From the NCBI RefSeq assembly GCF_025602895.1, contig NW_026516268.1:124001-188000 (forward strand): a DNA stretch of 64,000 nucleotides, in the 5' to 3' direction. Under the pieces are notes generated by a model that did no database searches, was not told the DNA's origin, and was given only the letters and a program-made list of their open reading frames with translations. Within the stretch, counting starts at the first letter, position 1. Every line of letters starts with the position of its first letter. This document shows, in pieces, positions 11,662 through 37,502 of the stretch. The DNA comes from Polychytrium aggregatum. Lineage: Eukaryota; Chytridiomycota; Chytridiomycetes; Polychytriales. The position numbers and the translations under genes were made by a program.

Positions 11662-14258
11662 ATCCGGTGCTTTAGACAAGATGCCACTACATTTTTCTCG
11701 ATTTATCACTCCCGCCCCCTTTTTTTTTTGCCTTTATATTGCTCCCTTTTCCTCCTTTCCCTTTTACTCCATCGCAGTTGCTTTCGTTTAATGTATCTCT
11801 CTCTCCTCTTTCTTTTGATTTTGATTGCATCTTCAGAGGCGTGTGAGGAACGCTTTTCTCCCCTCAGCGCACTCGGTGGGCCTCGTGTCCACCTTGGATC
11901 TGCATCCGTCCTTCCGAGGCTCCGGACGCCGACCCTTCTTCTTCTTCCTTATTGCCGCATGCTACTGATATCTTCTCTATTTATGCCTTCTCGTTCTCCT
12001 CATCGGCTGTCCTTCTTCCCCGCCGATCCGCTTTTGCCGTCATCGCGGCGCTTTCCCTTCTCACCAATCCCATCCTCCCTCACCATCGACTCTCCAACAT
12101 CCTCTCCACCTCCAATCTCCGCCTCGATCGTAACTCTCGTCCACACCATTGCTCAAACGCACACTCTCCCTTATCGAGCCTCCTTGGCTCCTCAACGCAC
12201 ATCACCACACAACACCGTCTCTCCCTATCCTCTCTGTCGCCTGTTTGTGCAGGCGATGTCCTTCGCTATACAGATGTTTGCCCCACCCCCTCTCATCCGC
12301 CCCTCTCTCGACCACATCAACGTTTGTTTCGCTTTGTTCGAAAGCCTCTGACGCTTTTGCTTCATACCCTCCCTTGCGTGTGTATAATTTACTGTCAATT
12401 TTGGGGACCCTGCACCTAAACAGCTGCGACTTGGAGTTGCGCCTACACTATTTATTATTTATTTTCGCATCCTTGTGGACCGACCTTTCCGATACCGTTT
12501 CGGCATTCAAGATACAAGAACTTTGTGGAAATTGTCAACTCCTCCTCCCACACCCAAGGTGTTTGGGCCGCCACTGTCGTCGCTCAGACGACGCAGCTAC
12601 TCGCTGCACTTTGACCGAGTCAACTCCCGGACGCAAGACGGACCGAGTGTTCGCCTCACCTCAAGATTCAAGATAAATTGTACCGCTCGCCCAACCCTCC
12701 CCACTCCTCTCTCACAAACTGGAAGGGCCCTTGTGGCTCCCCGAACGACAGCAAACGACCCCATCCTCCGACCATCCGGCCTATCATGACCATGTCCACT
12801 TCGACGTGGCTTTGTGGCCCTGCCTTGCGACTTGACTAGTACAGGCTTGTTGCAATCCATTTTCCTCCGCTCTCTACTTCCCCCACCCCCAGCAAACGTC
12901 TTATTTGGCCTTTTCGGGACGTCTTCGTAGTCGTCCTGTCATACTTTTGATCCTGCATCGTTACAAATGCCCCATGCCGAATCCGGCTCTGATTCACGCT
13001 ATCGGCCTCTTGGTGGCCGACGTAGCGCCAGCATCCAGCTACACATCATCCATCCAACTTCCATTCCTGTCACCAGGCACTGCGACAGTGCTCTCTCTCT
13101 GCTGACAGCTACGGCCCATGGACTATTTCAAGACCAATCGGATCCCAAGCCTTGCATTCGTCACCGATTGATATGCTCACTCCGAGCCCGCCAGAAGATG
13201 ACGATCCAGCAATGCATTTCGATTTTGGAATCAAGTTAATTGTCTTACTCTCGCCCTTTCGCCTCGGACTTGCTCCTCACGACGGGCTCCGCGGCCCTCT
13301 ACCCCTCCGACCAACCAGGGGCAGGGGCCTCTCCCAGGAAGCTCTGCCCTCGATTGCTATTCTCTCTGCCGGCGTTCTGAGTCCTCCTCCGGCCTCGCCT
13401 ATTGCAGGGCGACTTGCGCCCATTCAGCGTTGTTGCCTTTGCTGCTGGTGGACCTCAGCGACCCAGGACCTCAGCTCTTTCTGATTGCACTGCACTGCAC
13501 GACATGCTGCCGATGTTGATTGGTATATTTTCCTTGCGTTGATTGATCTTTGTTGAATCTTGTGTCTGTCGTTGGTTTCTCTGCCCAGCATGTCCTTTCA
13601 ACCAAACCGCGCCGATCCAACCAGACACACCTGGTTGCTTTGAGCATTTCCTTTTTTCTTCTTCATTTAAACATATAACCAACATAATCCACAAAAAAAT
13701 ATATCACTTCTTTCAACTTTACCTTTACATTTCGTTCAGAAAAAAACGAGACACCGCCAGACGAGCAGGGTATTGAGTTAGCAGTCATTTGGCTGTTGAT
13801 CGAACAGCTGCATGTGCCGCTCTCACGGGACTGACTTGGAATCGAAGTTGTCGGGGCTCAACAATTGCGATTCAATGCTCGCACTGGTGAGACGGCCCGA
13901 AACACTCTCTTGGACACACTGGTGGTCATCGAACATGGCCCTCGCTGTTTTCTAGGCGCTGATATTTTCGCACAGGGGGCTGGGTGGTACACTGTCAAGA
14001 GTCAAAGCCAGAAAGCAAACGGTTGCGGCGAAAGGCTGCCCAAATGGCAAAGCGGAGGGAACGAGCCGAAGGTGGTAAGGCGGAGTGAGAGTGAGAGTGA
14101 GAGTGAGAGAGGACGAGGGCCTTTGTCGTCCAGAATACACGCATTTCTCGCGGACCAGAAATGCTTGGGAGAGTGAGAGGAGGGAGAGCGAAGTAGAAGC
14201 AAAGGGATGAGGAACAGGCAAACTGCCATGCTCGACGAACGATCAATTCTCGTTTCCT
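11662..14258. other. 2.6 kb pyrimidine-rich interval with possible unassigned exons
   Basis: C/T-rich plus strand following the EDC1-like gene. No domain is recognised. Two stretches read like disordered coding sequence: 12535-12670 (TPPPTPKVFGPPLSSLRRRS) and 13150-13235 (SSPIDMLTPSPPEDDDPAMH). I could not chain them into a gene with convincing splice sites, so they may be a long 3' UTR, a small Ser/Pro-rich gene, or chance. A GAGTGA hexamer array lies at 14084-14113. Confidence 0.4.
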
Positions 14259-36539: not shown

Positions 36540-37153
36540 GGTGCATCTGCATCTGCATCATGCGGTCCCTCGGCGGATGCGACAGTCTCTCGCGACAGCA
36601 TTGAATCTAGCGAACCTGGACATCCCGCTGGTGGAGGAGGGTCGCGACGACGACGACGAGGATCTGAGGCGGCTTGCATTCGTCGTCGAGGAAGGTCGGC
36701 TCGAGGGACCGGTGCTGGTCTTCTTTGGCCGATTTGCCGAGTTTGCCGATGATGTCCGCAGCATGTCCAGGGGGTGGTGGGAAGGAAACGATATTGCAAC
36801 CCGATTACAGCGGCGTTGGAGCGGGTGGATGGGCACTGCAGCAAACTTAATTTGATTAGCGCGGCTTGCGTGGGTGGTGTGGGTTGTGTGGGTGGTGTGG
36901 GTGGTGTGGGTGGTGTGGGTTGTGTGGGTTGTGTGAATCAGACGGCTTTGATCAACAGCCGGCGAGCGGCGACCTGATTGGAATCATGTGTTGTGGGCGA
37001 GAGGGTATGTGGGGCCCTGATTCGCAAAGGTAATGCCAGTCACTACCAGAGAGATTCGGCTCTGGCGCCTGTCCATGCATCGCTCTGTTGGGCGGACGAG
37101 TGAAAGGGAACGCTCCAGCTATGATGTGACTGCGTCTTTACAGGCAATCCAAT
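36540..37153. repeat. LRRC49 upstream region with 9-bp TGTGGGTGG array
   Basis: Upstream of the LRRC49 start. A G/T-rich array of TGTGGGTGG-like units lies at 36868-36935. A Ser-rich open frame on the minus strand (36836-36558) could be an unrecognised leading exon, but it is not in frame with the LRRC49 start and I do not call it. Confidence 0.6.
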
Positions 37154-37435
37154 AAAAAACGGGACACCCGGGATTTTGACCATTCATCGAATATTTTGTT
37201 ACCCAATGTTATCGCGCGCTGGCCATGACCATTCGCCAGACGGTGTGGAATCGCGACGTCAATGCAGCGCGCAACATGATCACAGTGTGCAGGTCGATTG
37301 TGGAGACCGGAGAGCGACCGGCGGTCTTCACTCGGAGGCTGCCAAAGTGATATGTTTTATTTATTGTGGCTTTGCTTGACGCAAGCACAGCACATACTAC
37401 ATGTTCATGGAAACGGCTATATTGTCCCGTTTTTT
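37154..37435. mobile_element. Short element with 13-bp terminal inverted repeats
   Basis: AAAAAACGGGACA at 37154-37166 is matched exactly, as its reverse complement TGTCCCGTTTTTT, at 37423-37435. The 282-base unit between and including these ends holds the Fanzor C-terminal fragment. Sequence TA lies at or close to both outer edges (37153-37154; 37440-37441), so a TA target duplication as in Tc1/mariner elements is possible but not clean. Interpreted as an internally deleted, non-autonomous DNA transposon. Confidence 0.65.
37180..37350 (+). pseudogene. Fanzor (TnpB-like) nuclease, C-terminal fragment
   Basis: An open stretch of 56 codons ending in TGA at 37348-37350 contains QTVWNRDVNAARNMITVCRS. 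WNRDVNAARN is the C-terminal signature of the IS605 OrfB/TnpB and eukaryotic Fanzor families: its Asp is the third RuvC catalytic residue, following the zinc ribbon. Only one Cys (QCYRAL) remains where the ribbon cysteines should be, an in-frame TGA lies just upstream (37177), and the rest of RuvC and the N-terminus are absent. It is therefore a remnant. Fanzors are RNA-guided DNA endonucleases carried by transposons and are well known from chytrids such as Spizellomyces. Confidence 0.72.
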
Positions 37436-37502
37436 TCTGAATAAAGTGTATTGGTGGGTTGTGTCTTTATTGATGGGTTTCGTCGGCGCTGCTCTTTGCT
37501 GG

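Follow-up and report, generated by a model that had tools for sequence, protein, structure and literature searches.

A miniature of a Fanzor-carrying Tc1/mariner-type transposon in Polychytrium aggregatum, with one-sided joint scars that may record Fanzor homing

The short inverted-repeat element described here, which lies in a 64,000-nucleotide stretch of the Polychytrium aggregatum genome (the whole of it referred to below as the window), is, to judge by its sequence, a non-autonomous miniature formed by internal deletion of a Fanzor-bearing Tc1/mariner-type transposon. Elements of this kind are already known; the new part, as far as can be seen, is a motif found before the left end only, together with scars that are likewise confined to the left joint. 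We read these scars as traces of breaks inside the target of a Fanzor guide, with faulty one-ended integration as the main rival. That the genome in this way records Fanzor homing in a natural host, by means of a TTA motif, guides directed at the elements' own sites, repair scars and a Fanzor supplied in trans, is a proposal whose chances we put a little short of even.

The initial annotation had drawn the element from one perfect 13-bp inverted end to the other. Both ends (AAAAAACGGGACA) are exact, at 37154-37166 on the forward and 37423-37435 on the reverse strand, and they lie above chance, with three matches at no more than one mismatch in the window vs. 0.02 expected from shuffles. As outer limits they do not hold: comparison with other copies carries the repeats about 15 bp further out on each side, up to a TA, and the true element is correspondingly longer (Table 1). 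The sequence WNRDVNAARN, also noted earlier between the ends, is indeed present, in the reading frame at 37180-37350. The window copy consists of the parent's first 99 or so bases joined to its last 210 or so; against one full-length parent (L014) its first 103 bases are 98% and its last 216 bases 96% identical, the two alignments overlapping at the junction, where MTIR of the transposase is fused in frame to TVWNRDVNAARN of the Fanzor. A segment of the window at 13725-13755 (TACATTTCGTTCAGAAAAAAACGAGACACC) looks like a solitary, diverged right end of this family; searches of the window with the families (blastn, tblastn) gave no further trace besides the element itself. A short tandem repeat of the TGTGGGTGG type lies at 36864-36938, about 200 bases to the left of the element.

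Table 1. Features of the miniature element and its immediate flanks, in window coordinates
Feature	Position	Strand	Basis
Miniature element, 312 bp with its two TA repeats	37139..37450	+	Boundaries by comparing copies
Element proper	37141..37448		
Left TA	37139..37140		
Right TA	37449..37450		
TTA at left joint, made up of a single T and the TA repeat; candidate Fanzor target-adjacent motif	37138..37140	+	T in 190 copies vs. 8 with another base; right side unbiased
Left terminal inverted repeat, CAGGCAATCCAATAAAAAACGGGACA	37141..37166	+	
Right terminal inverted repeat, CACTTTATTCAGAAAAAAACGGGACA (reverse strand)	37423..37448	-	
Fused reading frame, 41 aa: first transposase codons in frame with last 36 Fanzor residues	37225..37350	+	
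Deletion junction with GCC microhomology: ATTCGCC (parent's left part), GCCGGACAGTG (right part)	37235..37237	+	
Fanzor residues 774-809 (RuvC-III, WNRDVNAARN)	37240..37347	+	tblastn, 97% identity to the family protein read from L026
Predicted omega RNA scaffold; last stem formed by right repeat and TA paired with upstream UACAUGUUCA	37351..37450	+	Fold
Predicted guide, first 15 nt of right flank	37451..37465	+	Inferred from published Fanzor RNAs that reach 14-15 nt past the end

The element is one of many. Across the genome surveyed (64.7 Mb in 418 contigs) the exact 13-mer occurs 743 times (376 and 367 on the two strands), and the same letters reversed only twice (2 and 0); as the 13-mer is common to at least one related family, not all 743 ends belong to this one. 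Many of the first 100 places listed pair at distances of about 3.7, 3.6, 3.45, 1.1 and 0.28 kb, full-length copies being among those that share the ends. Apart from the window copy, at least 39 places match nearly the whole miniature at 92-98% identity, with one more matching in part at 84%; these come from 40 scored matches of 1191 candidates, some of the places being the two haplotypes of a single site. The seven miniature copies that were compared share their breakpoints, with point differences (24 unique copies were aligned). Short, without a transposase gene, and present in many copies of like structure that have the parent's ends, the window element is a MITE, and the shared breakpoints, the parent's ends and the TA repeats uphold the earlier suggestion of a MITE-like deletion derivative of a Fanzor transposon. 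A chance inverted repeat beside an unrelated protein fragment, for which we found nothing in favor, is refuted by the number of copies of the 13-mer relative to its reversal, by the recurrence of the same structure and by the existence of full-length parents, and we consider it next to impossible. Other deletion forms include one of 1.1 kb, fetched twice (L022, L023), a patchwork of internal deletions (L006), and L088 and L092, all five of which retain both ends and the non-coding right end, as well as a miniature that has no right end (L090).

Full-length parents of the kind suggested earlier do exist, with the same ends and with both genes between the repeats. Among 20 end pairs fetched with 600-base flanks, 15 are 3372-3742 bp long, and in two of these (L013, L021) both frames are open at full length. 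Read from the left end, the transposase comes first and the Fanzor second, and roughly 100 non-coding bases separate the latter from the right end. The transposase frame has up to 325 codons (310 from the first ATG in L014); the protein of L012 matches DDE_3 (PF13358) at 8.5e-21, and that of L014 shows DD34E spacing (D145, D221, E256). A search of solved structures with the transposase gave two weak matches, neither of them to a transposase. The right joint is TA in 66 of 69 unique loci, the exceptions being L013, L140 and L146; the rows involved (L139-L142, L145-L146 and L013) represent three unique loci with TG or TT in place of TA at the right, two of which also have no T at the left. With its DDE transposase of DD34E spacing, its terminal inverted repeats and its TA, the parent is, by sequence, a transposon encoding a Tc1/mariner-type transposase and a predicted Fanzor nuclease.

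The Fanzor of the parent is about 809 residues long, and up to 851. That the fragment in the window is of the Fanzor/TnpB kind is borne out by the parent protein, which in L026 matches PF07282 at 35.9 bits (cut-off 26.3), and by a DPG at RuvC-I and a glutamate six residues before CxxC in seven of the eight Fanzor copies listed; the eighth (L010) has the DPG and no match to E......C..C. DPG and the rearranged glutamate are features given for Fanzor in the consulted parts of PMC10711439. The parent protein does not fit the published spacing DPG-x(120-160)-E......CxxC-x(12-18)-CxxC, since 176 residues separate its DPG from its E, and its zinc finger has CxxxxC for a second half, at a distance of 22 residues from the first; SpuFz1 likewise has CxxxxC in the alignment. 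In the same source, as far as consulted, that spacing serves as a search filter for TnpBs and not as a definition of Fanzor1. Among solved structures the sequence matches are weak (the TnpB-like L79, 9b0l, at E 0.26; SpuFz1, 8gkh, at E 0.56), so that it is the domain match and the motif which carry the assignment. The Fanzor gene, searched for with its last 373 residues, is found in at least 110 places at 90% identity or more, haplotypes being counted apart.

The genome also holds a second Fanzor family (family B, the family of the window element being family A), which has related ends and its own miniatures of about 200 bp (L058, L059, L066, L167-L177). At one chimeric cluster (L040) two left halves of family A lie near a right end of family B. 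Other Fanzor/TnpB-like families (L037-L057, L060-L065) have a different C-terminus (e.g. CTHCGFIKRDLGAAK...IDRDVNGARNILLKSL).

The miniature keeps, along with the two ends on which transposase and Fanzor would both depend, about 100 nt of predicted structured non-coding right end, where the omega RNA should lie. It may be a ghost Fanzor locus, having kept the predicted omega region and lost the Fanzor frame. The initial annotation had named this right end as the place where the guide RNA of such a system would lie. In favor of this, the 101 bases at 37351-37451 fold better than shuffles (-24.9 kcal/mol, z -2.39, with 3 of 200 shuffles as good); conservation in excess of the left end was not seen, the variability of the non-coding right and left ends being 0.020 vs. 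0.016 in the 15 full-length copies and 0.030 vs. 0.019 in the 24 miniatures. The right end is less variable than third codon positions (0.068). In family A the terminal stem has a mean probability above 0.5 in 30 of 43 ends, and of the 15 family-B rows, both haplotypes counted, 9 have a similar stem made of other bases, the likeness being judged by eye. For the one right end of family B that was folded, the shuffles did as well (z -0.95, 38 of 200), and none of 27 pairs within family B showed two-sided compensatory changes. According to the consulted text of PMC10711439, Fanzor1 RNAs have the terminal repeat and the target duplication in their scaffold and extend about 15 nt beyond; the stem predicted here agrees with that description, whereas the conservation and the family-B covariation do not prove an omega RNA.

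The two outer flanks of family A differ. Where the left end is otherwise intact, a T precedes the left TA in all but 8 of 198 copies, haplotypes being counted apart. The same holds for 29 of the 31 unique loci whose left end is canonical; a C one base further out is rare (1/31). At the same 31 loci the base after the right TA is flat (C 7, T 9, G 10, A 5). This one-sided T is the kind of mark that a target-adjacent motif of the Fanzor would leave, and we see no obvious reason for it in a transposase complex that handles two ends. In Spizellomyces punctatus, according to the sections consulted of PMC10432273, CA precedes the left repeat at both Fanzor and ghost loci, and the measured motif of the Spizellomyces Fanzor is CATA; by the same logic the motif predicted here would be TTA. 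In family B, a canonical end could be read in five unique miniatures, which have T, C, T, T/A and A at the corresponding position, so that family B may differ.

At some loci 3-11 nt that copy the right flank stand in place of the element's first bases, the joint lying at a microhomology. Such scarred left joints were found at 16 of the 69 unique loci at which both joints were read, a set that includes loci chosen for odd joints (L016, L021, L033, L077, L080, L083, L087, L088, L091, L092, L093, L095, L097, L103, L104 and L127). Nine of the 16 were reached only by way of a left joint that was already odd, and L127 through a match that starts late; loci sampled regardless of the left joint gave 6 of 41. 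The count leaves aside L019, a seventh match among the 41 whose flank begins with CAG and which is due to chance, the similar case of L130 in the larger set, and L022, L017 and L069, which match by 1-2 nt; haplotype duplicates, L003, L006, L025 and L074 (which shares only about 130 bp of left flank with L024) were dropped beforehand. Matches of at least 4 nt beyond the TA occur at 13 of the 69 loci; in 2000 shuffles of the right flanks the average was 0.39 loci and the highest count 3. Matches of at least 3 nt occur at 18 loci (two of them chance matches of the canonical end), where the shuffles averaged 2.5 and reached 7 at most. In three scars the copied stretch past the TA is just 3 nt, a length at which the shuffles yield 2.5 of 69. 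Since the loci were partly chosen by pattern, the following figures are approximate: the microhomology averages 2.94 nt (0.67 by chance), and the scar keeps the register of the normal left end exactly in 9 of 16 cases and to within 1 nt in 15, for which a register-free model gives 10% and 29%.

Right joints carried no such tails at any of the 69 loci. Mirrored patterns found 46 left variants and a single right variant, which has substitutions only and no tail; some of the 46 reflect subfamily differences or are haplotype pairs, and the pattern for the right end, needing exactly seven T, sees fewer copies. The left flank was read for 37 of the 46 rows. Both flanks were read at 21 unique loci, and of these 11 are scars and 10 are not (mostly the TTACGGGCG subfamily). 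The T before TA is missing in three of the 16 scars (L016, L080, L088), and in L016 the left joint reads TTA-C-TA before the scar, resembling an excision footprint. The longest tail, 11 nt, is shorter than the cut distance of 16-17 nt given for SpuFz1 in the sources as consulted. Wherever both haplotypes were read the scar is on both, so that its formation has not been caught in progress. Truncated copies with longer tails were also looked for: four full-length copies without a listed exact left 13-mer proved to have complete left ends, and a pattern for ends broken further in, which would miss forms like L127, had no match. In family B, left tails of 9 nt are present in two of eight unique miniatures (L025, L167), the scar of L025 having G before TA; L025 was rejected as a Fanzor-free control because its right end belongs to this second Fanzor family.

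Comparison of haplotypes adds a further feature. Joined-flank queries for 22 sites (L032 and L028 were left out on account of simple repeats) found near-identical flanks on a second contig, taken as the other haplotype, at 11, and no empty allele at any of the 22 (two queries, one with 40 of 46 candidates scored). Alleles differ in element size at nine of the 11 two-haplotype sites, L014 and L086 being the sites of agreement. At the window site they measure 312 and 283 bp (window/L187), with identical ends and differences in the interior alone. A 312-bp element faces one of 3.6-3.7 kb at four sites (L031/L188-189, L078/L190-191, L077/L199-200, L071/L201-202), 1.1 faces 3.6 kb at L022/L203-204, long forms differ by about 40-370 bp at L015, L020 and L026, and L033 vs. 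L098 (L033/L192-193) is a further pair of unequal size. In six pairs (L022, L031, L033, L071, L077, L078) each end agrees over at least its outermost 26 bases. Within the ends compared, several base differences are present in five of these pairs, in which the interior therefore seems to have been exchanged, probably by copying from other members of the family. The alleles of L077 differ at the deletion junction only, which could be a deletion in place. Four pairs of flanks show 4 differences in about 4,700 bases. Repeated breaks at these sites would explain alleles of different size, ordinary gene conversion among many copies would do so too, and assembly error is a possible source.

An account by Fanzor homing, which for the miniature we hold to have an even chance of being correct, would run as follows. 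Transposase from full-length copies would move the miniature, whose right end would be transcribed as an omega RNA with the element's own right flank as the guide. A Fanzor made elsewhere would, with this guide and the TTA motif, cut any element-less allele of the site, and repair from an element-bearing copy would restore the element. The left broken end would still hold the stretch of target from TTA to the cut, which the element-bearing template does not have; where this happened to pair with the start of the element (GGC, GC) it would be kept rather than trimmed, as a scar, while the right broken end would be fully homologous to the template and would leave none. A break inside the guide target would thus give scars that are confined to the left, keep the register, lie at microhomology and do not exceed the cut distance in length.

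Much of this could also be produced without the Fanzor, by an ordinary miniature whose right end is joined to TA while the failed left end is closed by target copying and a jump at microhomology, the T before TA being a target preference of the transposase. Faulty integration of this sort yields the same left-joint products with microhomology, and the element has the parts of a normal Tc1/mariner miniature; the three scars without T before TA speak for it as well, and the register bias would follow if the transposase held the left end at TA. It leaves unexplained why failure should be at the left only (46 variants vs. 1 with the mirrored patterns) and why T should be frequent on one side only, and variable repeats by a T-rich motif have been described, in literature consulted in part, in Fanzor elements of an unrelated superfamily. 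We judge it unlikely, though a serious competitor. The other alternative has the Fanzor as a passenger, and both scars and allele differences would come from repair after transposase excision with template switching. Template switching between dispersed copies occurs in P-element replacement in Drosophila. The internal deletions with microhomology, the elements of different size at one site in two haplotypes and the footprint-like joint of L016 agree with such repair, while the other 15 of the 16 scars have target sequence directly after the left TA and no footprint, and we think it improbable.

Several known systems are similar in part, as far as the consulted portions of their descriptions go. 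The ghost Spu-1 of S. punctatus (Saito et al. 2023, PMC10432273) shares with the miniature its inverted repeats, an omega region (a predicted one here) kept without an intact Fanzor frame, and a one-sided motif before the left end; it differs in that no transposase lies inside its repeats (134 ghosts, 42 Fanzor loci), whereas the parents here carry one, in that the window copy additionally keeps a 36-residue Fanzor tail in frame, and in that the portions consulted make no mention of junction scars. PGv-1 also has a Mariner transposase and a Fanzor1 between terminal repeats with TA duplications, but it encodes an endonuclease as well and is a single copy; the family here has two genes, more than 100 places and amplified miniatures. 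The Fanzor1 elements CRe-1, -2 and -3 of Chlamydomonas (Bao and Jurka 2013) show canonical left ends without an extra duplication alongside altered left ends with a variable-length duplication by a T-rich motif, the 3' end being intact. They differ in being of Helitron type, with duplications of 7-19 bp and longer and much 5' truncation, whereas here 3-11 nt lie beyond the TA and most of the left repeat survives. In the sections consulted, Bao and Jurka (2013) describe the 7-19 bp duplications of the altered-end elements as lying downstream of TTTT, report, for a related Helitron family, a single copy with such a duplication out of 200, explain those of CRe as one-ended transposition, and consider it not clear whether the Fanzor causes the difference. 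The TnpB nucleases of IS200/IS605 are alike in being thought to cut the element-less site with an RNA guide from the right end (PMC10432273, as consulted); they are bacterial and work with another transposase chemistry.

In the literature searched, as far as consulted, no paper was seen to link such scars with Fanzor cutting. What Fanzors do for natural elements is treated as open in the consulted parts of PMC10432273, where maintenance by cut-and-copy is a hypothesis modeled on TnpB of bacteria. The present genome, in which a transposase, a Fanzor and predicted guide-bearing miniatures occur together in one high-copy family whose motif and scars are both one-sided, is a natural data set in this respect, since the cut-and-copy model makes countable predictions here, namely the motif, the side, the register and a limit on scar length set by the position of the cut. 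If the homing reading is true, the variable-length duplications described in 2013 for the Chlamydomonas Fanzor elements would be the same scars.
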